DNA of 45,486 nucleotides from Methanotrichaceae archaeon. GTDB taxonomy: Archaea > Halobacteriota > Methanosarcinia > Methanotrichales > Methanotrichaceae. The notes below the pieces were generated by a model. The model saw only the letters and a list, made by a program, of their open reading frames with translations, was not told where the DNA came from and ran no database searches. The position numbers and the translations under genes are program-made. The stretch is from assembly GCA_016927425.1 (NCBI GenBank), contig JAFGMR010000077.1:1-45486 (forward strand), given 5' to 3'. Of this stretch, positions 21,935 through 43,044 are shown in pieces (within the stretch, counting starts at the first letter, position 1; each line of letters opens with the position of its first letter).

Positions 21935-22143
21935 TTTCTTCAAAGCATAAGCATTGGCCTCTCCATCCATGCCACCGATGGATATCATAGCCGGTAGTCA
22001 CATCACACCGATTCCGAGGTGCGGGTAAGTAAGGACGCAATGATTGCAGCGTGGAATGCTTCCACAAGCGACATTGGCGAATAGCTGCCCGGGGTAGCGC
22101 GAGAGTTCCGGGACCAAGACGCTTTTCGCTACATATCATCATT

Positions 22144-23005
22144 ATGCTTTGCATGGGTGGGAGTCTGTCGGGAGCGTTTCCCAGTCTGTTGCTGGCAATG
22201 ATCTTGGTCTCGCCGACATATGCCTTCCCCGCAGAGGTTAGCGGGATTGTGACCAACGTCGAAGATGGAAATACCTTCGACCTCTTGATAGTCGAAGGCG
22301 ACCCCAGGATAATGACAAGCCTGATCCGCGTCATGTTGGCAGATCTGGTCTGCCCCGACATCGCCACGGCAGAGGGGCGGTCCTCCAGATACTACGCCCA
22401 ATCGATTCTTCAGGACCGCCTGGTCTACCTCGATATAGATGATCAGTCCGGAGAGGATTCATATGGCAGCTGGGTGGCCGTGGCATACCTATCGGACTTC
22501 GGCGGCTTCATAAATCGAAGCCTGAACTTCAACCGCATTTTGGTCGACTCCGGCTATGCCTGCATATCGGACCACCGCGAACAACGAGTTCGATTTTGCT
22601 AGCTGGTGGGGTGGATACATCACCATCTCGGCATGTATCGATTCGAGCCTTCAAAGTCCGATCTTCTCCAGCGATGATGCATGGGCCTATCGGGGCTCCG
22701 GTGAGAAAGGTCGGCCAGATCCATACAATCCCGCAAAGAGAACCTCTGGAAGCTACATCGGAGACCGCGTCAGCGGAGCTTATCATTACGCAACCTGCTA
22801 TTGGGCCTCGCAGATCAGTTCCGAGAACCGCATGTGGTTCAACTCACCCGAGGAGGCGATATCCTATGGCTATTGGCCTTGCCTGATCTGTAATCTGCCC
22901 ACGTGCGCCTACTTCATATCCGATCCAGTGCTTGGCTCCGTCCCTTCGTATCCTTCGTGGGGCGCTGTGACTGGGGAGAGGTATCGCGGAGGGGATTGGC
23001 TCTAG
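22144..23005 (+). pseudogene. Exported nuclease-like (SNase fold) protein with Ada-like metal-binding tail, frameshifted
   Basis: The first frame (22144-22602) encodes a signal peptide ending near TYA and an SNase-like domain: VSGIVTNVEDGNTFDLL, RVMLADLVCPD, and LDIDDQSGEDSYGSWVAVAYL. It runs out at a TAG after losing sense near 22575. A second frame (about 22578-23005) continues with NNEFDFASWWGGY and the Ada-like Zn module: YHYATCYWA, FNSPEEAISYGYWPC, and LIC. Together they form one ~285-aa protein broken by a single frameshift. The SNase part lacks the Arg of the usual YGR motif (YGS here) and has Asp for the catalytic Glu, so it may not be an active nuclease even if intact. A sequencing error cannot be excluded. 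Confidence 0.72.
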
Positions 23006-24492: not shown

Positions 24493-25896
24493 TTAGCCGA
24501 TATACCCGAGTTCCCCAGCCCTCCTGTAGGCCTCCTTTGACTGGGCCTCCAATCCCAGCTTTTCCAGAACCGCTCCGCGGTTATGCCAGAACTCCCCGTT
24601 AAGGGGATACGCCTGCCTCCCTTCGTCCGGATGCTCTATCGCGAGATCCAAGGCTGCAAGGGAATTTCGATAGGCAACGAGTGCCTCATCATCCCGGCCG
24701 AGGGCCTTCAGGGAGTCGCCCTTGCCCTTCCATGCATGGCCGCTCTCCGCATAGACCCCCTCTGGATAGAGCTCGATCGCCTTCTCGTAGGCCTCCAAGG
24801 CCGCCTCATATGATCCCATCCCCATGTATGCGTCTCCAATCCCCCTCCAGGCATCGTCTGCAAGCCGGGGATCTGCCTCCATGGATCGGTTGCAGGCCTC
24901 TATCGATAGGTCGTACTCGCCAAGCTTCGCAAGCAGCTTGGCCTTCCCGAGCAATGCCTGGGCCAGGTGGTATCGGTCCATAGGATCATCTGTGTAGTTC
25001 AGGTCTATCGCCTCTTGATAGAGGGCGCTTGCCTCTTCATACCGGCCGATGTTCATCAGTGCCCCGGCCTTGTTTATCAGGACATAGGCCAAGAAGGGGG
25101 TGCTCGTCGGAGCTATGTTGGATATCAGGCTGTCGTAGGCCTCGATCGCCCGGTCGTGCTCTCCTCTCGCCTGAAGAGCCTCCCCGAGAAGCATCCATGA
25201 GTCGTAGCTCATAGGATCGATCAGAGAGGCATTCTCGAAGGCCTCCAGGGCATCATCGTCACGGCCCATCTGGCGAAGGACAAATCCCCTCGATATCCAG
25301 GATCGGCCGAGGGATTCGAGATCGCCTTCGTCGCAGGTCCTTATGGCCTCCATCGATGCCTCAAGCGACTCGTTAAGACGGCCAATATTGACAAGGGCCG
25401 AGCTCTTCACCTCCCAGGCTCTGGTGTAGTTGCCATCGATATCGGTGGCGGAAGCCAAAGCCTCAAGGGACTGGTTGTAGTCCTGCATGAAATAGTAGTT
25501 CAATCCAATCCAGAACCATGCCTCAGGATCGTCTGAGCTGATCCTCGTCGCGTTCTGGTAGGCCTCGATAGACCGGTTGTATTCTCCAAGCAAGTTCAGC
25601 ACTTTTCCCTTGCCCATCCAGGCCCGGGCATCGCCTGGGGACAGGAGCAGAGCTTGATCATATGCATCCAGGGCCTCATCGTAGGAGCGGTTCTGATAAA
25701 GCGAAAGCCCAAGATCGATCAGGTCATCGGATGTCTTTCCTTCGGAGGTAGCCTGGCCGCCTTCTTCGGCAATCGCATGGCCTCCCAATACCAGCAGGCA
25801 GAGGAAGGCGGCAGCGGCCCCCCTTATGCCAGACCTTCGCCAGCCCTGACTCTCATAATCGATGAATGAATCTCTCATGATGGGTTGATTTATCAT
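24493..25896 (-). CDS. Exported TPR protein 1
   Basis: A 467-aa exported protein made almost entirely of TPR repeats. Residues ~20-43 form a signal peptide (GAAAAFLCLLVLGGHAIA-EE), followed by a short linker. About eleven TPR units then run from ~57 to the C-terminus, with typical hits such as YDEALDAYDQALLLSPGDA and YEAALEAYEKAIELYPEG. The frame continues upstream to 25983 but would overlap the next TPR gene. ATG 25896 lies 17-28 bp after a TATA box (25913-25924), so it is preferred; ATG 25878 is an alternative. There is no membrane anchor. It is the last of five exported TPR genes in tandem. Confidence 0.85.
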   Translation of the reverse strand: MINQPIMRDSFIDYESQGWRRSGIRGAAAAFLCLLVLGGHAIAEEGGQATSEGKTSDDLIDLGLSLYQNRSYDEALDAYDQALLLSPGDARAWMGKGKVLNLLGEYNRSIEAYQNATRISSDDPEAWFWIGLNYYFMQDYNQSLEALASATDIDGNYTRAWEVKSSALVNIGRLNESLEASMEAIRTCDEGDLESLGRSWISRGFVLRQMGRDDDALEAFENASLIDPMSYDSWMLLGEALQARGEHDRAIEAYDSLISNIAPTSTPFLAYVLINKAGALMNIGRYEEASALYQEAIDLNYTDDPMDRYHLAQALLGKAKLLAKLGEYDLSIEACNRSMEADPRLADDAWRGIGDAYMGMGSYEAALEAYEKAIELYPEGVYAESGHAWKGKGDSLKALGRDDEALVAYRNSLAALDLAIEHPDEGRQAYPLNGEFWHNRGAVLEKLGLEAQSKEAYRRAGELGYIG

Positions 25897-25912
25897 TCTC
25901 TTACCTATATCT

Positions 25913-25924
25913 CTAGATATATTT
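25913..25924 (-). promoter_or_regulatory. TATA box of exported TPR gene 1
   Basis: AAATATATCTAG on the minus strand, 17-28 bp before the ATG at 25896, in the 37-bp gap between the first two TPR genes. Confidence 0.45.
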
Positions 25925-25933
25925 TTCAAGTTC

Positions 25934-26656
25934 TCATAATACTTCTCCACTGGCCCTGGCGAAGGCTTCATCGGCCTCGGCATGACGCCCTAGCTTCTCG
26001 AGAAGATAGCCCTTGGTCATCCAGGCCGATGCGCTACTCGGGCAGAGATCGATTGCCATCTCAGATGCAGAAAGTGCCTCGTCGTATCTCTGCAGCTCCG
26101 CCAGAAGGATCGCCTTCATGAGCCAGGCAGCCTTGATCCTTTGCGTATAATTTAGCTCGATTACCTCCTCGTAAGCCGCAAGTGCAGCCTCCGCATTATG
26201 CATGTTGACGTAGTTCTCTCCTTTCAGGAACCATGCCTCACCGTCGGACGGATTCTTCTCAAGGGTCCGATTGAGAACATCAATCGCACTTGCGTAAGCC
26301 TGGTCGTCCTCACCCTGCCTGTTTAGGCCGCTCAAAGCCACCCCCTTGCCCTGCCAAGCTAAAGCGTCGTCTGAATCATCTTCGAGGATCTCGTTTGTGA
26401 TCTCCAGAGCTCTGTTGTATGAGTTCAAGGCCCAGTACTGCAATGCATGGCCTTTGTTGATCAATGCGTTGTAGTTATCCGGATCGATATCGAGTACCTT
26501 GTCGTAAGCCAAAACGGCATCCTCATAAGATCCATTCGCTGTTAGACCATAGGCTATATCCATCCAGTAGTCTGCGGTGTCCTCCTCTGCCACTGCAAAG
26601 TTGCCTAGCAGAACGAGCGTCAGAAAGCCAAGGGCGATCCCAGTCCTTGACCTCAA
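25934..26656 (-). CDS. Exported TPR protein 2
   Basis: A 240-aa exported TPR protein, the shortest of the five. A signal peptide (GIALGFLTLVLLGNFAVA-EED) covers residues ~6-23. It is followed by DYWMDIAYGLTANGSYEDAV, the same opening as paralogue 4, and about five TPR units. The start is a TTG at 26656. There is no in-frame ATG before an upstream stop, and GAGGG lies about 4 nt before the TTG. It ends DEAFARASGEVL without an anchor. The leader and first repeat suggest it arose by duplication within this cluster. Confidence 0.83.
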   Translation of the reverse strand: MRSRTGIALGFLTLVLLGNFAVAEEDTADYWMDIAYGLTANGSYEDAVLAYDKVLDIDPDNYNALINKGHALQYWALNSYNRALEITNEILEDDSDDALAWQGKGVALSGLNRQGEDDQAYASAIDVLNRTLEKNPSDGEAWFLKGENYVNMHNAEAALAAYEEVIELNYTQRIKAAWLMKAILLAELQRYDEALSASEMAIDLCPSSASAWMTKGYLLEKLGRHAEADEAFARASGEVL

Positions 26657-26736
26657 ATATCCCTCTCTTCTGCCAAATATTTTTTGTTTTCTCGTTCAAA
26701 TCACCTGTTTCAAGATCTCTCTAAAAATATGCTAGG

Positions 26737-27810
26737 CTAGCCTTTGTATCCGATCTCCTTCGCCCTGTCAAATGCCGCCTCTGCATCGTCCTGGCGGCCC
26801 AGCGCCTCCAGCGCCTCGCCCATCCATCGATACCTCCAGACGTTCGACGATTCAGAGTGCGCTTCTATCTCCTCCTCGAAGGCATCGACCGCCCGCTCGT
26901 ATGATAAGGCCGCCTCGTCATGCCTGCCCATTCCCTCAAGGGCGTCGGCTTTGAACTTCCAGAACTTCGCGACCTCCGGAAGCCAGGTGGTGTCGATCTC
27001 GTAGCGCTCTTCCGCCCGACCGTAGGCATCGAGGGCCTCATCGTGCCTCCCTAGGGCATCGAGGGCCTCACCCTTCCAGAGCCAGGTTCCCCCGGTCTGG
27101 GTTGGGCTCATGAGGTCGAAAGAGCGGACGAAAGAATCGTTGAAGATCTCAAGGGCTGTATCGCAGGCATCGATCGCCTCCTCGTACCTTCCAAGCTCAT
27201 AGAGGACGCATCCTTTGTTGGACCAGGCCGCAACCAGGCTCAAAGGATCGCGATCGGTAGATCCGAGCTCGATCGCCCTATCGTAGGCGCTGAGGGACTC
27301 GTTCCATTGGCCTTGCTCGAAGAATATAGCTCCCCTGCCCCGCCAGGCTCTGCTCTGCAAGATCCTTTCGTCTGGATCCTCGGAGACCTCGGCTGTTGCC
27401 TCATCGAAGATCGAGAGCGCCTCGGCCCGCCTTCCCATGACTGTGAGAAGCTCGGCCTTCTCGAGCTTCGCCCTCGTGTTCAGCGGATCGAGATCTATCG
27501 CCTCATCGAATGCCTCGATCGCCCGATCGTACTCGCCCAGATCCCGAAGCGCGATGGCCTTGTACCGCCAGGCCTCGACGTTTTCGGGATCGATGTCGAT
27601 CGTTTTATTAAAGGCCTCTACCGCTTCTTCCATAGAGCAGTTGAAGAGAAGCTCTTCGCCTCTTTCTAGCCAGTATCCCGTCTCGTTCTCCTGCGCCAAG
27701 GCAGAGCTGCAGAGCGTCGCCAAAGCGACGAGGGCAAGGGCGGATCTTGCCCATCCTACCGGCTTTGGCAGCCCGATGCGGGCCATCAACGATGCGGATT
27801 TTTCTTTCAC
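26737..27810 (-). CDS. Exported TPR protein 3
   Basis: A 357-aa exported TPR protein. The signal peptide is ARSALALVALATLCSSALA-QEN (about 21-39). It is followed by GYWLERGEELLFNCSMEEAV and about eight TPR units, several with insertions that lengthen the helices, ending AFDRAKEIGYKG. The start is GTG at 27810 with GGAG about 10 nt upstream; an in-frame ATG nine codons later is the alternative. The C-terminal form resembles paralogues 1 and 5 (ELGYIG, QLGYEG). Soluble extracellular scaffolding is the likely role, but no partner is identified. Confidence 0.84.
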   Translation of the reverse strand: MKEKSASLMARIGLPKPVGWARSALALVALATLCSSALAQENETGYWLERGEELLFNCSMEEAVEAFNKTIDIDPENVEAWRYKAIALRDLGEYDRAIEAFDEAIDLDPLNTRAKLEKAELLTVMGRRAEALSIFDEATAEVSEDPDERILQSRAWRGRGAIFFEQGQWNESLSAYDRAIELGSTDRDPLSLVAAWSNKGCVLYELGRYEEAIDACDTALEIFNDSFVRSFDLMSPTQTGGTWLWKGEALDALGRHDEALDAYGRAEERYEIDTTWLPEVAKFWKFKADALEGMGRHDEAALSYERAVDAFEEEIEAHSESSNVWRYRWMGEALEALGRQDDAEAAFDRAKEIGYKG

Positions 27811-27910
27811 TTATTCCCACTCCTGCTTCTTCCATCCATTCTTGGCCACAATGATTTTTGGGCTAGGGGCGGAAATCGAGCCCCGGCCTGCCTTTATCAT
27901 TCGGGTGAGG

Positions 27911-29701
27911 TTACGAAGGTTGATCCTCAAACTCTCCGGTTCCCCTCATCATCACTACGCCATCCGGCATGTTTTCAAATCCCAGAAACGAGACGTCCCT
28001 TCCCGACTCATCTCTCAAGGTGACGTTTGTGGCGGTATCGTTGAGGGCGATCTCGCTATTCATGAATAGGTTGGTCTCGGTCTCCTCGCCCGCTTGGAAG
28101 TGGACCCTAACCTTTCCCGCAGGCTCCAGGGTATATTCGGGAAGGACCACAGATCTCGTCTCATCATCGTCGACAACCAGTGTCCATCCTCCGAGGCTTC
28201 TTGCCTCATCGAGGTGGTTCTCGATCTCGACAAACTCGTCCCCACCTTCGGCGCTGATGTTGGTGAGGGCGATCATGCCTGCAAGGGGTGATGTGAATCC
28301 AAGCTCTTTAGCCCTGGCAAAGGCCACCTCGGCCTCATTTTCGCGGCCGAGATACTTCAGTGAATTGCCTTTCAAGTACCAAGTGTATCCATGCTGTGGA
28401 CCAAGCTCGATTGCCTCCTCGAAGGCTGCCAGGGCCTCCTCGTCCCTTCCAAGGTTCATGAGGATTAGGCCCTTCAATTGCCAGTATTCAGGATTCTCTG
28501 GATTTATATCGAGAGCCCTTTCACAGGCTTCCAGTGACTGGTTATACCTACCAAGGTTGGGACCGAGAATCCGAGCCTTGGCAAGCCAGGCGATCGAATT
28601 CTGAGGATTGATATCGGTGGCGTTATTCAATGCATGGAGGGCATCTTCATAAGATTCGGCTACCTGTAGCTCTCGTCCCTTCTCGATCCAGTAGCCTGAG
28701 GTCTCCTCCGGCGTCCAATAGGCTGCGAACTTATCCAGCGTTCCAGTAGAGTTCCTCAAGGTCAGATTTCCGGCAACGTCATCGAGGGCGAGATCTCCCA
28801 TAAGATAGACGTCTGTCTCGTTGCTCTCGCCTTCGCCGAGATGGAACCTGATCCGTTCACCGGGACCGAGGGCGAAGTCGGGAAGGACGACCGACTCCTT
28901 ACCGTCGATGGTCAGGATCAAGCCTTCGAAGGTCTGGGCCTCGTTTCCGCTGTTGGCCATCTCGATTAACTCGTCCTCGCCCAGGGATACGACGTTGGTG
29001 ATGGCCAGAGACAAGGCGGACGTCGTCTCATACTCAAGCTCCCTAGCTCTGGCATACGCCGTCTCCGCCTCGGCCCGGCGGCCAGCCTCCTTTAGAGCAT
29101 CTCCCTTGAGGCTCCAAGCCTGGGCATCTTCCGGATTTGCCTGGAGGGCACCGTCAAATGCCAAGACAGCTTCGTCGTATCTGTGTAACTCGCTTGCGAG
29201 GATGACTCCTTTCATCATCCAGGCCATCTCGTATTCGGGATCGATATCGGTAGCATTGTCAAATGCTCTAACTGCCTCTTCGAAATTGCCTACATTGTGA
29301 AGGAGCAATCCCTTCTCAGACCAGGCGATGCAATTCTGGGGATCGGTTTTCAGCGTATTGTTGGTGATATCCAGGGCCTTTTGGTACGCTTCGATAGCCT
29401 CATCTGTTCTGTTTAACCGCCCAAGTGAATTGGCTTTGTTGATCCAGAAGATGCCGTTCTCTGGATCAATCAAAATGGCCTTATCGTAAGCCTCTATCGC
29501 CTCCTCGTAAGATCCATTGGCGCTCAGGCCATATGCGATATTAAGCCAGTATTCCGATGAATTCTCAACTGAATTCTCTTCCTCTGCCTGGGCAGGGATG
29601 CAAAGCGACGCCAAGGCCAGAAGGACGATGGCAAACCTGGCCCCATCTCCCCATCTCAACAGCCCAGCAAGGGCTGCAGTCGATCTTCCCATTTTGAACA
29701 T
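27911..29701 (-). CDS. Exported TPR protein 4 with two lamin-tail-like domains
   Basis: A 596-aa exported protein with an internal duplication: signal peptide (ARFAIVLLALASLCIPAQA), TPR block A (~50-230), beta domain A (~235-330), TPR block B (~340-485) and beta domain B (~488-585). The beta domains share the order LAITNVVSLGEDELIEMAN / IALTNISAEGGDEFVEIEN, then LxLxxDxxxSVVLPxxxLxPxxxxRxHFxxGE, then a DLALDD or EIALND strand. This matches the lamin-tail (LTD) fold found in exported prokaryotic proteins. GTGAGG lies about 8 nt before the ATG. The alternation suggests a spacer-and-binding architecture for surface attachment; the ligand is unknown. Confidence 0.84.
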   Translation of the reverse strand: MFKMGRSTAALAGLLRWGDGARFAIVLLALASLCIPAQAEEENSVENSSEYWLNIAYGLSANGSYEEAIEAYDKAILIDPENGIFWINKANSLGRLNRTDEAIEAYQKALDITNNTLKTDPQNCIAWSEKGLLLHNVGNFEEAVRAFDNATDIDPEYEMAWMMKGVILASELHRYDEAVLAFDGALQANPEDAQAWSLKGDALKEAGRRAEAETAYARARELEYETTSALSLAITNVVSLGEDELIEMANSGNEAQTFEGLILTIDGKESVVLPDFALGPGERIRFHLGEGESNETDVYLMGDLALDDVAGNLTLRNSTGTLDKFAAYWTPEETSGYWIEKGRELQVAESYEDALHALNNATDINPQNSIAWLAKARILGPNLGRYNQSLEACERALDINPENPEYWQLKGLILMNLGRDEEALAAFEEAIELGPQHGYTWYLKGNSLKYLGRENEAEVAFARAKELGFTSPLAGMIALTNISAEGGDEFVEIENHLDEARSLGGWTLVVDDDETRSVVLPEYTLEPAGKVRVHFQAGEETETNLFMNSEIALNDTATNVTLRDESGRDVSFLGFENMPDGVVMMRGTGEFEDQPS

Positions 29702-29761
29702 CTTTTATCCCTCACTCTCACTTCATCGTCTGAAGATTTCGGCAAAAAAAATGGACAAGGT

Positions 29762-31231
29762 TCAGCCCTCGTACCCCAGCTGTTGAGCAACGTATAGCGA
29801 CATGGAGGCGTTGTAGACCTGGCCGAGCGCCCTCTGGGCCTCCCCCTTTCCATACCAGGCATTGCTCCAATGAGGACCAAGCTCGATTGCCATATTGTAG
29901 GCATCCAGAGCCTCCCGATCTCTGCCCAAAGCCCTAAGGGCATCGCCCCTGCCAATCCATGCGGTGGTATCGACTGTATGGGGCTCGATGCCGGAAGATA
30001 CAGCGAGGGTTTGGTCGTAGGCCTCCAATGACTCGTCGTACCTGCCAAGCTCGTAGAGGGCTCTCCCCCTCATCTGCAGCAGGCTGACGTCACCGGGATC
30101 TTCCAAAATGGCCTTTTCATAAAGCTCCAGCGCTCTCTGGAAGGCATCTATTGCCTCATCTCGCTTGCCGGTCTTGTTAAGGGCAGATCCCTTGGAAAGC
30201 CAGGTCTGCGCAAGCTCCTCTGTCTCATCTTTGGAGGTCAGCTCGATTGCCTCGTCATAGGCCTCCAGGGATTCGTCATACCTCTTCATCTCGACGAGGA
30301 GGCTTGCTTTCCACTGCCAGCTGCCGACGTCATCGGGATTCTGCTCAATCGCCTCGTCAAATGCTGCCAGAGCCTCATCGTCTCTGTCGAGTTCGGTCAA
30401 GACAAAGGCCTTGAAATGCCACCATACGCTGCTCTTGGGATTCAGCTCCAGCGATCTATTGATTGCTTCCAGGGCGTCTTCCATTCTCCCCGCAGCTGCC
30501 AGATCCTCGCTCTTGGCGGCATAGCCTAGCGCCAGCTCCGCGGTGTCGCTTGCGGGTATCAGCTCGATGGCCTTGTCGTAGGCCTCAACGGACTCGTTGA
30601 TGTCTCCTATAGCGCTTATGACCTCGGCCTTTCTCCACCAGACGTTGTAGTCCAGCGGTTTGAGCCTCGTTACCTCGTTGTAGGCCTCATGGGCCTCATC
30701 CCACCGGCCGAGGCTCAAGAGGATGTTGGCCTTTCCCATCCAGGCGTCGGCGTCCTCTGGATCCTCATCGATCCTCTGGTCGAAGGCAGCCAGGGAAGCT
30801 TCATACGCCTGGGTGGCCTCTTCTTGTCTGTTCAGGCGTCTCAGAATTTGGGCCTTGTTCTGCCAGGCCTCGGCATCGGCTGGATTTGCATCGAGATCTT
30901 CATCCAGAAGGGCGAGCGCCCTTTCGCATGTCTCTATGGATTCGTTCACCTTTCCCACGACAAGGAGGTCGAGAGCCTTTCGGATGAGGATCGTCTCATT
31001 CTCAGGATCGATATTTAGGGCTTCATCGTAAGCGGAGATCGCCTCCTCGATGGAGCCGTTGTGGTACAACTCCTGGGCCTTGTTCATCCAGTAGTCGGTG
31101 GTCTCCTCCTGTGCCATGGCGGAGATGCACAGCACCGCCAGGGCCGCGAAGGCTAAAGCGAATCTCGCGGCTCCCGTCCCAAACTTCAATAGCTCAATGT
31201 TGATTGCAGTCGATCTGCCTTTCTCGTTCAT
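29762..31231 (-). CDS. Exported TPR protein 5
   Basis: A 489-aa exported TPR protein. It begins NEKGRSTAINIELLKFGTGA, shares the GRSTA leader with paralogue 4, and has the signal peptide ARFALAFAALAVLCISAMA-QEE (~22-41). About twelve TPR units follow, from DYWMNKAQELYHNGSIEEAI to the C-terminus. Repeats such as YDESLEAYDEAIELTSKDE are highly regular. A GGGGTGAG ribosome-binding site lies about 7 nt before the ATG. An upstream four-codon ORF that starts with the same ATGAACGAG lies at 31240-31254. This is the first gene of the TPR tandem in transcription order. Confidence 0.85.
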   Translation of the reverse strand: MNEKGRSTAINIELLKFGTGAARFALAFAALAVLCISAMAQEETTDYWMNKAQELYHNGSIEEAISAYDEALNIDPENETILIRKALDLLVVGKVNESIETCERALALLDEDLDANPADAEAWQNKAQILRRLNRQEEATQAYEASLAAFDQRIDEDPEDADAWMGKANILLSLGRWDEAHEAYNEVTRLKPLDYNVWWRKAEVISAIGDINESVEAYDKAIELIPASDTAELALGYAAKSEDLAAAGRMEDALEAINRSLELNPKSSVWWHFKAFVLTELDRDDEALAAFDEAIEQNPDDVGSWQWKASLLVEMKRYDESLEAYDEAIELTSKDETEELAQTWLSKGSALNKTGKRDEAIDAFQRALELYEKAILEDPGDVSLLQMRGRALYELGRYDESLEAYDQTLAVSSGIEPHTVDTTAWIGRGDALRALGRDREALDAYNMAIELGPHWSNAWYGKGEAQRALGQVYNASMSLYVAQQLGYEG

Positions 31232-31303: not shown

Positions 31304-32179
31304 TCACTCTTCCCATCCGCTCAAGCTCGCTTGCATCATGACGAATCGTTCGTTTGCGCTTCCCGGAAGATCCAAGGCAAAGAGGAAGCCGTTCCAGAAA
31401 AGGCCGTCATCGTCCTCAAAGGTCCAAGTGCTCCAGGCGGAAGGACCGCTCTCCCCACTATCCTGAAGGGTCCAGTCGGCGGCCTTGAGCAGATCGCCAT
31501 AGTGGATCGAGAGGGCGGAGCCATTCATCTCGGTCTCCAGGGTCGCGGATATCCCGACGCTTGATCCGCCGCTTGATGTAAAGCTCTCTCGAATGTGTTT
31601 GGCTCCGGCCGGGCTCGTAAGCTTGGGGATTGGCTCTAGCCAGTCCTCCAACTCCGTCGCTTGTCTACAGGGCGAGTATTGGGGATCGGAGTTTACATTC
31701 AGGCGGAGATCCGTTCCCCCCTCAACCGGATGGGCGATAATAGTCAGAGATGGGTTCTTCCTGCCCTGGCAGAAGGTCGCAGTAGCTGCGCTAGGCGCAA
31801 ATCCTCGGGACGTTCCCGGGATCTCCGTCTCGGTCCAGTTCGCCGAGGTCATGCGCTCTCGATAGAATTCTATCGCCTCGGATGGGGCCATCCTCGTGTC
31901 AAGAACGATCTCAATTGTCTCCCCATCCCTGACTGCGCTTCCAACGATCCTCGCCCCCACTGGAATGGGGGGATCGAGGGGCAGATCCGCTGGAAGCCCT
32001 TCCAGAATGATCTCTACATCCACGAGCTCTGAGCTTCCTGAGTAGGAAGGCTCCAAAAGCCTCGTTGCCAGCTCCTCGAAGGAAGGCTGGCTGGAGATCG
32101 CCGGTCCAGCTTGCTCGGAGGAGGATCCGAGCCCTATGAGGGCAGAGAGCACTATAATTGTCCAAAAAGTCCCTCTCAC
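31304..32179 (-). CDS. Exported protein with two related alpha/beta modules
   Basis: A 291-aa exported protein with a signal peptide (about 1-19). Two modules of similar plan follow. Module 1 (~70-165) has PPIPVGARIVGSAVRDG, then a T-M-A-P-S-E-A-I-E-F-Y-R-E-R-M segment and SANWTETE. Module 2 (~190-285) has GAKHIRESFTSSG, then SALSIHYGDLLKAADWTLQD. The pattern, a strand with a PxGA motif, a helix ending near FYRERM and a GW-like segment, recurs in many exported proteins of unknown role. The start is GTG 32179, with GGAGGT about 10 nt upstream lying inside the end of a small upstream ORF. Function unknown. Confidence 0.78.
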   Translation of the reverse strand: MRGTFWTIIVLSALIGLGSSSEQAGPAISSQPSFEELATRLLEPSYSGSSELVDVEIILEGLPADLPLDPPIPVGARIVGSAVRDGETIEIVLDTRMAPSEAIEFYRERMTSANWTETEIPGTSRGFAPSAATATFCQGRKNPSLTIIAHPVEGGTDLRLNVNSDPQYSPCRQATELEDWLEPIPKLTSPAGAKHIRESFTSSGGSSVGISATLETEMNGSALSIHYGDLLKAADWTLQDSGESGPSAWSTWTFEDDDGLFWNGFLFALDLPGSANERFVMMQASLSGWEE

Positions 32180-32938: not shown

Positions 32939-33595
32939 TCAGAGGCAGGGTAGCCAGTCGACGCTTATTGAGCCGCAGGTGCTGTTGCCCCAGAGCTGGA
33001 TGAACTTCTCGACGGAGAATACGCCTGTCAGGTCCTCGATCGATCGGCCCCACTCGCTATGCCTGCCCTTGGAGCTTACCATAGGATCCCTTGAGAGCCA
33101 CCCGATGTGGGCGACGCCTATCACCTGGCTGTTGAAGCTCGCCTCGAGGATGCCTGTGCAGCAGTAATCGAACTTGCCGGAGTCGTAGAGGCCGGTCCTG
33201 ATCTCAGTGCTCTTTTGCAGGTACTCTGCGTGGGTGTAGGACTCCGTTACCACTGCACCTATATCGTAGTTTGCTGCGCAGACTTTGTCCGTCCATTTCC
33301 GGTCGTAGGTCCCTGTCTGGTAGCTTACAGGGAAGTACTCTAGCTCAGTCTCCTGGGTGAAGTTGATGTGATCATTGTCCACCTCGAGCTCATAGCTATC
33401 GTAGAAGCGACCGCTGCCGGAAACTCCCTCGACGAACTTCTGGCCGGCATATCCTGAAGCTGTCTCGCCCATCAGCTCATGGCTGCGGTAGCCAACCCCC
33501 TTGACGACCGATCTCTCGTAGATGTAGCTCGTCGCAGCGTCCGAGCCGATCAGCAGAAGTGCAAGGAGCAGAGCTGCCCCAAGTCGCAACCTCAA
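32939..33595 (-). CDS. Exported protein of unknown function
   Basis: A 218-aa exported protein with a clean signal peptide (LRLGAALLLALLLIGSDA, cleavage near 20). The mature part is beta-rich with aromatic residues and several cysteines (KVCAAN, YCCTG, STCGS, a final PCL), which may form disulfides outside the cell. No domain is recognised. The start is TTG at 33595, with GAGGA about 8 nt upstream and a stop immediately before it in frame; TTG 33589 is possible. It stands alone between two long gene-free regions. Confidence 0.75.
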   Translation of the reverse strand: MRLRLGAALLLALLLIGSDAATSYIYERSVVKGVGYRSHELMGETASGYAGQKFVEGVSGSGRFYDSYELEVDNDHINFTQETELEYFPVSYQTGTYDRKWTDKVCAANYDIGAVVTESYTHAEYLQKSTEIRTGLYDSGKFDYCCTGILEASFNSQVIGVAHIGWLSRDPMVSSKGRHSEWGRSIEDLTGVFSVEKFIQLWGNSTCGSISVDWLPCL

Positions 33596-36387: not shown

Positions 36388-39300
36388 CTATAGCCATCCA
36401 GCCATCGATTCTGACCACATCGAATCCGACCAGAAACCGGGATTGTCGATGACGAAGGGATCCATGGCAATTGGGATTCCGTCCATATATACCTCTACCA
36501 GCCATACGCCCGGCATATACTCCGGTGGATGGCCCTTGATGCCGAGCCCCGAGTAAGCGACCTGCCCGTCTGTGGAGCCAGCCTGGGGTTCGATCAACGA
36601 CGACTGGGACTGGTATAGCATCCCATCGGGGGAGATCCAGTTCCACTCCACCAGGCGAGGGGAGGAGACCTGCCCGAGGTTGAGCCAGGAGATGACATAT
36701 GGGTCCTCGGACGAGAACTCATATGTCTCCTCGATGGGTTGATCGTTCTGGACCCCGGTGCATAGGGTGTGATATATCTCTTGGATCATGCCGTCGACCA
36801 GAGGTCCGCCATCCTCCGCCACAACGGTGATCATCGTACCGGTCGACGGTCCTTGTCCGTCGAATTGGCCATCGTTCGATCCATCATCTGCCGGGGTCCA
36901 GCGTGAGGTTTGACCCTGCTGCGTCCCTGATTCCCCACGAGCAAGGTCTCCTCCTTCAGCCGTGATCAAGGGACCTTTCCAGGTGGCGAGGGGGAAGTTG
37001 TCCACACCGAGTCCACCTGGGATCTCGAAGGGCCGGTCGCATATGCCGTCTCCGTTGGCATCTCTGCATTGCCCGTAGTAGTTGCCCAGGGTTCCGTTGT
37101 CCCAGCGATTTATGCTCAAGAGATCGGTGTCGAAGTCGTAGGCGTTATGGGCGCGGTTATCCACCAGCCGGTTCATGTAGATGAGGTTATCGTAGCATGT
37201 GAGATCCAGGAAGATCCCGTAGTCGTTCATCGTTGCGCTGTTGTTGATTATCCTGTTGTTTAGAGAGAGGTCGCTCAAGCATATCCCAAAGCCGTTCTCG
37301 TTTGCGTTGCTATCCCTGACCGTGTTGTTGCTCGCCTGATAGAGGTATATGCCATGCTCCAGGTTGTTATCCACAACGTTATCGACGATGACGTTGTCGT
37401 TGGAGGCTACCTTGATCCCCGACTCCATGGCGTTCGTGGCTGCGAATCCCTCGACGGTGATGCCATCGGCCGCTAAGGTGATTGCGCTTCCTCTGAAGGA
37501 GGCGTCCACGACGGGCCGGCCCTCGCCAGTGTCGACGCCTATGAGGGTTAGGCCCTTTCCGATCACGACGTTCTCGGAATAGGTCCCGCTCGACACCCGT
37601 ATTGTATCGCCAGCCGTTGCAGCGTCCACCGCCTCCTGAATGCTTCTGTAGGCGCAATCGCCCTCGGGGCAGACATCGACCACCGCCTCAACCGTCTCTC
37701 CTGGCCCACCTTCTGCAGCCTCAGCACTTATCTGGAAGGACCATGTGCTGGAGTTCCGGTTGCCGGAATTGTCCTCGAGGGCGACCTCCAGGTCGTGGTT
37801 GCCATTCGCCAATGGCTCGGTGGGCGTATACCAGACCTTCGTTGAGAGGACAGTTGAGTTCCCGGTTACATCGACTCCATCTAGCATCAGACGCACTGAA
37901 TCCGGATCGACCCCAGATCCAGCATCCGCTAAAGATGCGCTGACAAGCGGCCTTTCATAGACAAGCGTTGAGCCATCCGGCGGCTGAAGGTCCTCGATCG
38001 ACGGGGGAGTGAGGTCGCCCGAGATCTGGAAGGTCCATCTGGAGGTGTTCTCGTTCCCCTGTCTATCCGATGCCCTCACTTCTACGAGATGCTCGCCTGG
38101 TGCGAGGTCGTCCGCCGGCGTGTACCATACCCGAGCGGGCACGATTCGGGCCTCGGTTGTTACATCAGTTCCATCGACTGATACCGAGACCGACTTTGTG
38201 TCTATCCCGGAGCCTGTATCATTGAGATCGGCACTTATGAGGGGTCGCCGATATGACAATGTCGATCCGGTAGGCGGCTGAAGCCGGCTTATAGACGGCG
38301 GATCGCTATCGCTGTCATCGGATGCGACGATTAGCGTTTTTGATGCCTCGTTGTTAGAGGGGTTTGAGTCGTCAGCTCTTGAACTCACGACGACCTTGAT
38401 CTCATGGCTGCCAACACCGGCTGTCCACTCGGTATCCACGGCTACGCTCGAGAACTCCGGTATGTAAGGGATGGTGACGTCGTCTATCAGATCGACCCCA
38501 TCCAGGAACCGAACCTGGACATCGCCCAGGCCGACGCTTCCCTGGTTGTGGACCTGGGCCTCTATTGTCACGTTCTCGCCGATTCTCGGCTGCAGGTTCG
38601 AGATCCTAAGCTCCTCAGGGGATACCAGCAGATCTGACTCGTGCTCGACCGTCCCGCTCAGGTTGGCAACGATCCTATCAGCCTCCTCCTGGTCGTGGGC
38701 GACGACCGCCATATCCTTCTTCTTGACCATGAAGTCGATCGAGTAGCCCTCGAGGGGGACGTAGTATCCCCTGTTCATGCCGACGACATCGAGGACGAGG
38801 GAGTTTTCGGCAGTGCCAACCTCTGCATAGTTGACGAACGTTGGATCGACCTCGAATGTGTAGCGGCCCTGGGGAACGGTTCCATTGATGCTGCCGATAA
38901 GGTGTCCGTTCAGCATGACTTTGGTGTCGAAGGGTTGATAGTAATCAGGCGCCTCACGAGCGAACCGGAGCGTCACGAAGACCTTCTCGACGTTTCTCAC
39001 AGGCGAGCAGAGGAAGTCCAGGTCGGATGTGAAGGTGTTCTTCAGAGGGGCATGGTTTATGCAGCTCTTGACCGTTATCGTCTGAGTCTCCTTGAGACCT
39101 GCCTTGGATCCCTTCTCCGCCTTCGCCTGCTCCTCGGAGACGCGCGTCCAGTCGGCGTAGTTGCTGTAGACGTTTGATGCCCAGCCGAGCACTGTGAGGC
39201 TTCCTGCGAGCTTTCCCTCCTTGAACGTCTTTAGGTAATGCCCCTTCAGCGTCGTGAACTGCCCTCCAAACGACTTTGCAGTCTTCGTTGCCGGGCCGAT

Positions 39301-42300
39301 GATCGTTTTACCGGTATTCGGATCGATCATCACGAACTCGGGCACCATCATCTCGCCCTTGAGGTTCTTCACGGCCTTGATGAAGTTCCACTCCTTCATG
39401 CCATGTCTGAGATCGTTGCCCTTCGAGTAGTCGAGAATCGGATCGAGGGACAGCTCGCCCGCTCCTCTCACGCCGGTTGTGTAATCCCCTCTGCAGAGGT
39501 TGTTTACGGTATCGACCATCCCCATAGCGGTGTTGAACCCAGGCACGAATCCGGCGTAGCACTTGATGACCACGCCTACCTTGTTGTGCGGAGTGAGCAT
39601 CCCCTCATTCCAGAAGATCTTCCAAGTCTCACCATCGACGAAGGCCCCGGGATCGCATATCAGCTCATAGACGTCGGAGAAGAAGAGGACGTAGTCGTCC
39701 ATCTCGACCTTGATCTTGAAGCCTTCGATTCGCTCGCCGTCCGAGTCGTATACGGGAACGGGAACATCCACATACAAAGGAACGTACTCCTCGAAACGGA
39801 CCTCTTCGACCTTATGGTACAGCGACGTTCCCGATCCGTCTCGCACGTCCACCCTGAGGGTGTCAGTCAAATTCCTGTCTGATATAATGGCATATGTGAA
39901 TATGTACTGGGAGAGGTTCTCGTCCGGCATGACGTAGAGGAGGCGCATGGCCTTATGCGGCTCGCCCTCTTCGAGGCTGTTTGAGACGGTGACCTTCGCC
40001 ATCTGCCCTCCATCGACGGGGAAGGGAAGCTCGTATGTGTAGTCATTGAGCTGGCTTATGTCCGCCTCTCGCCAATCGAAGCGGATCTCCCTCTCTCTAG
40101 ATGTTGCGATTCCCTGTGACGACTGGGTGGCAATCGTTGCCGTATAGTTGCCAGGATCTGCATAGCCGAGGTCGAAGGTGATTTCATCTCCCTCACAAGA
40201 TCCGATCACCTCCTGATAGCTGTAGTTCCCCCAGTGTCTAAGGTACAGAATTGGGATGGCATCATCGGCGAGGCCATCGATCCTCGCCGTGATCTTGAAC
40301 GGAGGAGACTCGAGCGTCACCGGATCATCGCCTGCAAGGTCGAATGTCTCGTTGGCGTCAGAAGCGCTCTGCCACTCGATCGCCTCGTGGTCGATCGTCC
40401 TCGATGGGGTAGGATCGACCGAGAACCTTCGCTCCTCGGTCGAGGACTCGAAGCCCTCGACGGTTGCGCGATATGTGTAATCGCCGAGAGGTCCGGATAT
40501 GACGAAGCCAGTCTGCCCGAAGATATCGGTCTCAGCACGGATTGTCTCGTTTGATCCAGCACCCACAAGGTCAAGGAGAACGGATGCCTTAGAGGCGGGC
40601 TTTCCATCCTGCTCGACTTTTACCTTTACCTGGGCTAGAAAGGCGGTTGTGCTCGAGTCCCCGGAGCGGATTGTGTAGGATACAACCTCTCCTCCCGAGG
40701 GATTGGTGTTTGCGATTCCGTCGAAGTCGTACTCGGGATCGAACTCAATCGTCATTCGCGGGATCTCTCCAACGAACACCCGCATCCCATCGGGGACGTT
40801 GAACTCAAGGGGAAGCTCTCTCTCCTCTCCAGCAACATAAGCGGTAATCGTGCCTCTTGCCCCTGTGAAGCCCTCGGTCAGAATTGGAACTGCCAGGAAC
40901 TCCAGGCTCTCTCCCGATCCGAGATAGGCGTGGTCCAGCGTCGGCTGGAAGAGGAGGAGATCCTTGAGCTCAGAGCTTGCGGCAACCCTGAGATCGGTTA
41001 TGGGGTCGCCATCGTTCGTCAGTTTAATCGTCTTTGCCAGCGTATGGGGATCCTCGCTCACTTCTTCCAACTCGAAGTCGATCACCGGTACGTGGACGTC
41101 GAGATGTATGTAAGCGAGGTCGGTTATGGGCTCCGCGTCCAGGTTGGTCAGGCCAAGGAGTATCGTGTAGTTCGTAGATTGTGCATCTTGGGCGTGGAAG
41201 ACCAGGCGCACCTCTTTTCTCTCGCCAGGGAAGAGGGCTATCCTCTGGTCCATCGAGCCCTCTCCGACGAAGTTTATGGCAAGGTCGCTTGGAACGTTCG
41301 ATACGTTCAAAAGAAGCTCATGTGGCTCGTCGTCGGTGTTCTCGACGGTGATCGAACGCTCCTGGTTGTAGTCCCTCTCTATGGTGAACTCGTAGCTCCT
41401 CTGTGGGAAGCTTATGCCGTTATCCACGAGGATCTGTCTTGTGTCGCTCGTCGTTTCGTTTCCATTCGCATCCGACCTCACATAGTACTCGTAGAGGGTG
41501 TTTCTGTCAAGGTCACCGACAACGATCTTGTGCTCCCGTACGACAGGACCTGTGATCTGCCGAAACTCCTCCTCTCCTTCCGCTCTTATGAAGAGATCCC
41601 CGCTGCTCTCAACAGGCGTCCTCCAGCTTACAAGCAACTCGTTCGAGCCTGTCCTGGTGCTATCCAGGGGAAACAGGTCGATTAGGAGAGGGGCTGATGC
41701 GAGATCGAGCTTTGCCTCTGCATCGCGGTATGTTCCGAGGTTGGTCGAGTTTACTTGGATCGCGAAGGTGTAGTTGCCTGGACGTGCATCCTCGGGGATT
41801 GTAACCGTGAGGGGGACCTCCGCCTCCTGGCCAGATGAGAGGTTGATGGACTTGTCCATGGATACCCATTCGCTTCCAGGGCCGCTTGCCGAGATCGTAA
41901 AAGCATCGCCCATCCCCTGTCCGTTTGTGATCCTGAGGCGATACTCATCGATTGCACCCAGGCTGGTCTCTATGCGATCTGGGGAGAGCGAAATCCTCCA
42001 TCTCTCATCCTGGCCCGAGAGGGTGACGACATCGATCCTCACAGTGGCTGTTGCGTTTCTCCCCTCGTCGTCGGAAACCCTGAGGCCCACAAGGCGCTCG
42101 CCCTGCGTCCTCCATCCTTCGTAGGTATAAGTCGGATCTGTGACGCTTCTGTCGTATACGCCATCTCCATCCAGGTCCCACTCATAGGAGATGATGTTCC
42201 CTACAGACGACGATCGAGAGGCATCAAGCAGAACAATTGTTCCGGCGAGTACGATCTGGTCGAGGCCTGCATGGGCAATGATCCCCGCAGTTCCCCCGAA

Positions 42301-43011
42301 GTTGAATGTAAGCGTGATATCCCAGGAGCCGCCCGGTGGGATGTCGCCCGCGTTCCACTGCATGCCCACTGCGACATCGCCCGTCCCATCCACGGGGAAC
42401 TTGTCGTTTCCGTTGAGCTCCCCGTCGTCCCAATCGCTGTAGATCTCCTCAGACCAATACTCAAGCCCGTGATTAAACGACTGCTTGCTGCCGCTAAAGC
42501 CGTTTCTGAAGTACTGGTCGTTGTTCTGCCAAACGGAGTCGTCGCTCTCGCTGTACCACCCATAGGAGTCGCCCGAGGTCACTATATCGTAGTCGACTGT
42601 CTCGAAGAACCTGACGTCCCGAAGCGCGGTAGTGGCATTGGTGTTCGAAAGAACGTACGTTATCTGGAAGTACTTGGCATCCCCTGGAGGGAGGTATACC
42701 TGCCTAGTAAGCGAGAGGTCCTCATAGTGAAGGGTTGCGGTCCTGCCGTCATTGCTATCTGCAAAGTACTGGTCGACTGAGAAATCGCTATCCGATTCCT
42801 TAGCATATTCCCAGTTTTCGGCGTAGACTGCGAAGTGCTCCTTGTAGAGGGAGTCGCCCCAGGTATCTGGAGCGTACATGAACCGCCACTCGGAGCTGTA
42901 GGTCTCCCCCCAGTCGAGATCTAGATAGGTATTGTTGAGGGAGTATGCTTGGCTCAAGGGCACGAGCAGAAGGATGGTAGCAAGGGCTAGAAGATGCTTA
43001 GATGTCTCCAT
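36388..43011 (-). CDS. Giant multidomain surface protein (PKD, Fn3-like, CARDB, Ig-like, NosD beta-helix)
   Basis: A 2,207-aa exported protein. Approximate layout: signal peptide (1-25, ending PLSQA), a beta-rich N-terminal domain to ~240, a PKD domain (~242-330, with ISYEWDLDGDGVYDRS), a Fn3-like domain (~438-530), repeated beta-sandwich domains to ~860, and a long unassigned middle to ~1455. After these come a CARDB domain (~1460-1565), two tandem Ig-like repeats with SGIDTKSVSVSVDG and SGVDPDSVRLMLDG (~1570-1765), a NosD-like parallel beta-helix (~1780-2010) and a C-terminal domain. No membrane anchor is seen at the end. ATG 43011, with GGTGAT upstream, is preferred to 43026. Adhesion or envelope role inferred. 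Confidence 0.88.
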   Translation of the reverse strand: METSKHLLALATILLLVPLSQAYSLNNTYLDLDWGETYSSEWRFMYAPDTWGDSLYKEHFAVYAENWEYAKESDSDFSVDQYFADSNDGRTATLHYEDLSLTRQVYLPPGDAKYFQITYVLSNTNATTALRDVRFFETVDYDIVTSGDSYGWYSESDDSVWQNNDQYFRNGFSGSKQSFNHGLEYWSEEIYSDWDDGELNGNDKFPVDGTGDVAVGMQWNAGDIPPGGSWDITLTFNFGGTAGIIAHAGLDQIVLAGTIVLLDASRSSSVGNIISYEWDLDGDGVYDRSVTDPTYTYEGWRTQGERLVGLRVSDDEGRNATATVRIDVVTLSGQDERWRISLSPDRIETSLGAIDEYRLRITNGQGMGDAFTISASGPGSEWVSMDKSINLSSGQEAEVPLTVTIPEDARPGNYTFAIQVNSTNLGTYRDAEAKLDLASAPLLIDLFPLDSTRTGSNELLVSWRTPVESSGDLFIRAEGEEEFRQITGPVVREHKIVVGDLDRNTLYEYYVRSDANGNETTSDTRQILVDNGISFPQRSYEFTIERDYNQERSITVENTDDEPHELLLNVSNVPSDLAINFVGEGSMDQRIALFPGERKEVRLVFHAQDAQSTNYTILLGLTNLDAEPITDLAYIHLDVHVPVIDFELEEVSEDPHTLAKTIKLTNDGDPITDLRVAASSELKDLLLFQPTLDHAYLGSGESLEFLAVPILTEGFTGARGTITAYVAGEERELPLEFNVPDGMRVFVGEIPRMTIEFDPEYDFDGIANTNPSGGEVVSYTIRSGDSSTTAFLAQVKVKVEQDGKPASKASVLLDLVGAGSNETIRAETDIFGQTGFVISGPLGDYTYRATVEGFESSTEERRFSVDPTPSRTIDHEAIEWQSASDANETFDLAGDDPVTLESPPFKITARIDGLADDAIPILYLRHWGNYSYQEVIGSCEGDEITFDLGYADPGNYTATIATQSSQGIATSREREIRFDWREADISQLNDYTYELPFPVDGGQMAKVTVSNSLEEGEPHKAMRLLYVMPDENLSQYIFTYAIISDRNLTDTLRVDVRDGSGTSLYHKVEEVRFEEYVPLYVDVPVPVYDSDGERIEGFKIKVEMDDYVLFFSDVYELICDPGAFVDGETWKIFWNEGMLTPHNKVGVVIKCYAGFVPGFNTAMGMVDTVNNLCRGDYTTGVRGAGELSLDPILDYSKGNDLRHGMKEWNFIKAVKNLKGEMMVPEFVMIDPNTGKTIIGPATKTAKSFGGQFTTLKGHYLKTFKEGKLAGSLTVLGWASNVYSNYADWTRVSEEQAKAEKGSKAGLKETQTITVKSCINHAPLKNTFTSDLDFLCSPVRNVEKVFVTLRFAREAPDYYQPFDTKVMLNGHLIGSINGTVPQGRYTFEVDPTFVNYAEVGTAENSLVLDVVGMNRGYYVPLEGYSIDFMVKKKDMAVVAHDQEEADRIVANLSGTVEHESDLLVSPEELRISNLQPRIGENVTIEAQVHNQGSVGLGDVQVRFLDGVDLIDDVTIPYIPEFSSVAVDTEWTAGVGSHEIKVVVSSRADDSNPSNNEASKTLIVASDDSDSDPPSISRLQPPTGSTLSYRRPLISADLNDTGSGIDTKSVSVSVDGTDVTTEARIVPARVWYTPADDLAPGEHLVEVRASDRQGNENTSRWTFQISGDLTPPSIEDLQPPDGSTLVYERPLVSASLADAGSGVDPDSVRLMLDGVDVTGNSTVLSTKVWYTPTEPLANGNHDLEVALEDNSGNRNSSTWSFQISAEAAEGGPGETVEAVVDVCPEGDCAYRSIQEAVDAATAGDTIRVSSGTYSENVVIGKGLTLIGVDTGEGRPVVDASFRGSAITLAADGITVEGFAATNAMESGIKVASNDNVIVDNVVDNNLEHGIYLYQASNNTVRDSNANENGFGICLSDLSLNNRIINNSATMNDYGIFLDLTCYDNLIYMNRLVDNRAHNAYDFDTDLLSINRWDNGTLGNYYGQCRDANGDGICDRPFEIPGGLGVDNFPLATWKGPLITAEGGDLARGESGTQQGQTSRWTPADDGSNDGQFDGQGPSTGTMITVVAEDGGPLVDGMIQEIYHTLCTGVQNDQPIEETYEFSSEDPYVISWLNLGQVSSPRLVEWNWISPDGMLYQSQSSLIEPQAGSTDGQVAYSGLGIKGHPPEYMPGVWLVEVYMDGIPIAMDPFVIDNPGFWSDSMWSESMAGWL

Positions 43012-43044
43012 GGGCAAGATCACCATATATCATTCATTATCCAT

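Follow-up and report, generated by a model that had tools for sequence, protein, structure and literature searches.

The stretch of DNA analysed here (45,486 nucleotides, hereafter the window) corresponds to contig 16 in a 2.3 Mb, 99%-complete assembly from an archaeon of the Methanothrix family, which is the sole member of its own genus within the genome set compared. Between positions 24493 and 31231 its minus strand carries five genes, named A, B, C, D and E in the order of transcription, and the product of each has TPR repeats behind a Sec-type signal peptide. The intergenic gaps are operon-like (37-100 nt; 60, 100, 80 and 37 nt from A to E), and 72 nt upstream of gene A lies a further minus-strand gene (31304-32179) for an exported protein of 291 amino acids without TPR repeats. 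Given the short gaps and the proximity of this upstream gene, A to E and the gene for the 291-residue protein likely form a single transcription unit, in which the latter is probably the first. The 291-residue protein has no Pfam or NCBIfam match, and a search for its relatives in the other arrays described below found none. Elsewhere in the window, positions 36388-43026 encode an exported giant of 2212 amino acids with PKD, Ig-like, CARDB and NosD beta-helix domains, which is probably a surface adhesin, and two overlapping plus-strand open reading frames at 22051-23005, the first of which has no Pfam match, look like an exported nuclease-like protein that a frameshift has broken in two.

Gene A (29762-31231, on the minus strand like all features of the array) encodes a protein of 489 amino acids (449 mature) with nine TPR units by a local HMM and seven N-x-S/T sequons. 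It begins with a 40-residue signal peptide (31112-31231; ...CISAMA-QEETT, the hyphen marking the cleavage site, which here and below was placed by a heuristic). Gene B (27911-29701; 596 amino acids, 557 mature, 13 sequons) combines a 39-residue leader (29585-29701; ...CIPAQA-EEENS) with a TPR-LTD-TPR-LTD architecture, whose two lamin-tail domains (LTD) had been overlooked in an earlier note on this DNA. The C-terminal LTD2 (27980-28255; PF00932) gives the protein 50.8 bits against a Pfam cut-off of 34.3, and LTD1 (28715-29023), a lamin-tail-like beta domain with 70-80% identity in the closest relatives, was recognised by homology to LTD2 and to the orthologs. Gene C (26737-27810; 357 amino acids, GTG start, five sequons) has a 39-residue leader (27694-27810; ...CSSALA-QENET), and gene D (25934-26656; 240 amino acids, TTG start, three sequons), which has its first repeat in common with B, a 23-residue leader (26588-26656; ...NFAVA-EEDTA). 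Gene E is listed with 496 amino acids (24493-25983; nine sequons) and probably starts about 29 codons into this reading frame, near position 25896, with the leader at 25768-25896 (...GGHAIA-EEGGQ).

All five proteins match TPR above the Pfam cut-off (E values from 1e-20 to 1e-61) with multiple 34-residue units. The AlphaFold model of gene B consists of two TPR solenoids, mostly with pLDDT above 80, and of beta-rich LTD segments of low confidence, and the best PDB match of this gene is 8chy, a designed consensus TPR superhelix (E = 2.5e-16). With the NCBIfam models for NlpI, PilW/PilF, BamD, PrsT and MamA all five proteins remain below the cut-off. Gene A does exceed the cut-off of the model for the type III secretion chaperone SctY (NF052415; 83.8 against 70), a match that we dismiss as a repeat artefact because the score sums four repeat stretches of a 489-residue exported protein, while the model describes a small single-domain chaperone of 106 positions.

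Our export calls are based on a custom signal-peptide heuristic together with sequon statistics. The heuristic scores all five leaders highly, recognising an n-region, a hydrophobic core and an A-x-A cleavage site followed by QE or EE, and nearly all array genes of other genomes likewise receive high scores. No lipobox with its Cys at +1 was found in the N-terminal regions of the five proteins, and none of them has a hydrophobic C-terminal anchor or a membrane segment; the earlier description of the locus as five same-strand genes for exported TPR proteins without an anchor thus holds. The mature proteins are acidic (pI 4.2-4.4). TPR arrays are commonly cytoplasmic. In the host genome about 12 of some 30 TPR loci appear to be exported, and since five of these are the consecutive genes A to E, their clustering is not due to chance.

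The second line of evidence for export comes from the sequons, of which the five mature proteins contain 37 as opposed to 8.8 expected from shuffles (4-fold, z = 10); the reversed motif occurs six times. The scattered exported TPR proteins of the host genome are likewise enriched (z = 8.6), as are the arrays in each of seven related genomes (z between 5 and 18), whereas the 14 non-exported TPR proteins of the host contain 21 sequons where 20 are expected (z = 0.2). Across the arrays the sequon Asn concentrates at TPR position 21, where helix B begins. Ser or Thr occupies position 23 in 70 of the 79 units with Asn21 as compared to 29 of the 312 units without it (Fisher 2e-43 across all arrays, p = 0.006 for the window only), p-values that are optimistic because repeats and orthologs share ancestry and are not independent. 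When orthologs are compared, 85-100% of the sequons of A, D and E turn out to be conserved, as opposed to 55-63% for other Asn residues, and only 40-46% of those of B and C. The host genome contains two genes for oligosaccharyltransferases of the STT3/AglB type. As judged from the sequences, this pattern is one of selection for glycosylation sites, at which glycans would presumably be attached, and selection for glycosylation sites is at the same time selection for export (INDEPENDENTLY). Signal peptides and a sequon selection that is absent from the cytoplasmic TPR proteins of the same genome hence both argue for export, as the earlier note had assumed. Moreover, the sequon pattern offers a simple way of telling from sequence if a TPR protein functions outside the archaeal cell.

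The five genes had been thought to derive from local duplication, on the grounds of shared leaders. The mature proteins are only 27-37% identical to each other, whereas each of them has reciprocal orthologs in related genomes with 60-79% identity over most of the length, which rules out recent tandem duplication. For gene A, for example, the orthologs share 76-79% identity in genomes G012, G007 and G008 and 68-70% in G026 and G015, another genus included. By these identities A to E are paralogs that diverged long ago and not the products of recent duplication. Nor have the leaders been homogenised within genomes, as leader identity is nearly equal for orthologs (0.41), paralogs of the same genome (0.39) and unrelated pairs (0.37); the shared leader is therefore a trait of the family. 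Of the two leader motifs proposed, GRSTA is indeed common to the leaders of A and B, but the second (xYWxxIAYGLxANGS) is the first repeat of B and D. This first repeat of B in the window is closer to that of D in G012 (74%) than to that of B in G012 (57%); the trace of segmental exchange that B and D show is a small one.

The cluster is conserved in that related genomes contain similar arrays, albeit reshuffled, with gene order and number differing between them. Longer arrays of the same genes are found in a Methanosarcinales MAG and in Methanothrix harundinacea UBA1, the nearest named relatives of gene B. In total, about 20 genomes from at least six genera have exported, sequon-rich TPR genes in arrays or pairs, with 2-14 genes each (13 or 14 in G012, about 12 in G015, seven in G007, six in G029 and five in G026). 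In G035, at least eight such genes are distributed over three contigs. A query with the leader only gave matches in 24 of the 50 genomes of the family, the strong ones of which fall in the arrays. Among the further members of other arrays are a NosD/right-handed beta-helix protein, whose leader is the same, a protein built of Dictyostelium-type matrix repeats, and exported proteins that end in a winged helix. Together with the LTDs this amounts to matrix-like company, in line with the notion that the TPR genes have exported neighbours. One of the largest arrays (G015, contig L099, 5328-11038) alternates TPR genes with genes for three exported proteins that end in a DUF7343/winged-helix domain. 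Viral contigs searched for TPR-LTD proteins contained none.

Outside the Methanotrichaceae the picture is different. Among 41 genomes of the one neighbouring family sampled in the class, the best TPR homologs of A share about 33-44% identity over parts of the query, and those with readable N-termini are mostly cytoplasmic or else single lipoproteins with an AGC lipobox. A search of 171 genomes of the class with the B-type LTD gave matches in the Methanotrichaceae and only two, weak ones elsewhere. Since the readable homologs of the neighbouring family are cytoplasmic or single lipoproteins and the LTD is nearly confined in this way, exported TPR arrays look, from their distribution in these genomes, like a feature of the Methanotrichaceae that is routine within this family. 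Their presumed rarity thus applies outside the family but not inside it, where arrays are common. In the literature searched, no paper on exported TPR proteins of Methanothrix describes such arrays, which hence seem to be undescribed.

Gene Y (32939-33595, minus strand), separated from the upstream end of the array transcription unit by 759 nt, encodes an exported, predicted beta-rich protein of 218 amino acids. The Y family is present in 50 of 50 genomes of the Methanotrichaceae, with 2-33 matches each, and in 13 viral contigs, and those of the latter that were checked carry head-tail genes. Sheath (SH) proteins are described as signal peptide-bearing, multicopy proteins of 150-350 amino acids that occur in all Methanotrichales and are carried by their head-tail viruses (PMC11576556). 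The traits of Y match this description, including the capture by viruses of sheathed archaea (PMC11576556), and we therefore read Y, with good confidence, as an SH-type protein. The predicted model of Y is beta-rich, but its confidence (mean pLDDT 31) is too low for a comparison with the hallmark of SH proteins, two six-stranded amyloid-like beta-sheets. A PDB sequence search with Y gave no match, and a profile comparison of Y with two neighbouring exported families (271 and 379 amino acids) was not significant. The SH-like gene of the viral contigs L164, L169 and L176 has a reverse-transcriptase-like gene 1-2 kb upstream of it (in L169 tested by a PHROG match), which points to a diversity-generating retroelement in its vicinity.

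Is the array linked to the sheath? In the window an SH-like gene is found next to the array, in G012 and G007 within it, and in G049 next to a TPR-LTD gene, and the best relatives of the window's Y outside its own genome are the copies of G007 and G012. About 16 other arrays have no adjoining SH-like gene. The expectation that the cluster always has the same surface genes as neighbours is thus not borne out, as the SH-like neighbour is present at only four of about 20 loci. On the strength of these four loci we regard a link between array and sheath as plausible. The genus of G041-G046, which includes a complete genome of 1,879,471 bp, gave no match to the leader query, and in six of its six genomes one divergent Y copy adjoins a TPR gene of about 370 codons that has no leader and whose product is thus cytoplasmic. 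We take this genus to be M. thermoacetophila-like, and M. thermoacetophila has a sheath. The arrays are therefore unlikely to be essential for the sheath as such, and an obligatory sheath machinery is an improbable role for them.

Taken together, it appears rather probable that A to E are secreted, unanchored and N-glycosylated TPR scaffolds of the envelope or matrix which form a Methanotrichaceae-specific set, whereby we infer the glycosylation, the location and the scaffolding. The proteins would be exported by the Sec pathway, as their leaders indicate, lose their signal peptides by cleavage and fold as TPR superhelices outside the membrane, where AglB-type enzymes may N-glycosylate the repeat surfaces, often at the site that recurs where TPR helix B begins. 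With TPR grooves and LTD domains as contact surfaces, A to E could then act as protein scaffolds in the space between the membrane, the S-layer and the sheath or within the matrix of filaments or granules, with other exported repeat proteins acting alongside. Since the paralogs have each kept an identity of their own, the set probably offers a range of binding surfaces and not an extra dose of the same one. It is an attractive idea that the sheath retains these anchorless proteins, whereas exported TPR proteins of the neighbouring family carry lipoboxes instead. A more specific version, in which a network of secreted, repeat-glycosylated TPR/LTD solenoids forms or assembles a sheath-associated layer of Methanotrichales filaments (a plug, a sheath lining or an inter-cell matrix), is tentative and on balance doubtful. 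If true, such a network would be an archaeal extracellular matrix made from a fold that is usually used inside cells.

But could the TPR proteins not instead act as extracytoplasmic chaperones or escorts, which help SH amyloid-type or other exported proteins to cross the S-layer and assemble, and which are retained in the sheath lumen? Bacterial periplasmic TPR proteins aid outer-membrane or pilus subunits. The SH-like genes at four TPR loci (those of the window, G012, G007 and G049), the kinship of the Y copies at the first three of these loci, and the presence of lipoboxes on exported TPR proteins of the neighbouring family but not on A to E would all fit such a role. Furthermore, sheath assembly factors are not known, and a 2024 survey was unable to tie additional proteins to the plugs or to the assembly of the sheath (PMC11576556). 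Yet most arrays do without an adjoining SH gene, and in the M. thermoacetophila-like genus, which lacks leader matches, the SH-like gene is found next to a cytoplasmic TPR gene, so that we consider a chaperone role unlikely.

A role of the arrays as varied surface recognition proteins, be it for the binding of partners or kin in filaments, granules and syntrophic aggregates or as a result of virus-driven selection, would account for the strong variation in copy number and architecture between species, for the segmental exchange between genes, and for LTD and beta-helix domains, which are typical of surface proteins. However, the high identity of orthologs over most of their length and the largely kept sequons of A, D and E form a purifying rather than a diversifying pattern, and no hypervariable region was seen; we thus think recognition quite unlikely as the main function. 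Finally, the leaders might be non-functional and A to E ordinary cytoplasmic TPR adaptors, as is usual for TPR arrays and as most of the closest homologs in the neighbouring family are. This is highly improbable, since only TPR proteins with a leader show the sequon enrichment, which is missing from the leaderless ones of the same genome. Secreted scaffolds of the envelope or matrix hence remain our preferred explanation.

Archaea of the Methanothrix family are major methane producers that live as sheathed filaments and in granules, and with the arrays there are now concrete secreted proteins as candidates for components of their envelope or matrix that are not yet known. With NlpI, PilW/PilF, BamD, the PrsT of PEP-CTERM systems and MamA, several of which work outside the cytoplasm, A to E would share the use of a TPR solenoid as a binding scaffold. 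Different from these bacterial proteins, they are archaeal, lack a lipobox, carry N-glycosylation sequons and are encoded in tandem arrays of paralogs. Exported archaeal TPR proteins are also found in the neighbouring methanogen family (that of G111), but its five exported examples bear an AGC lipobox, whereas A to E are unanchored, tandem and sequon-rich. Gene B resembles prokaryotic lamin-tail-domain proteins such as surface nucleases and hydrolases (PMC5118699, PMC12021427) in that its LTD is part of an exported protein, yet it differs from these enzymes in that it fuses the LTD to TPR arrays and has no enzyme domain. The archaeal SH proteins (PMC11576556, PMC10593813), finally, are secreted envelope proteins of the same order, whose description the Y family fits. 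A to E, in contrast, are alpha-helical TPR proteins and not SH proteins, and membership in the SH family concerns only their neighbour Y.
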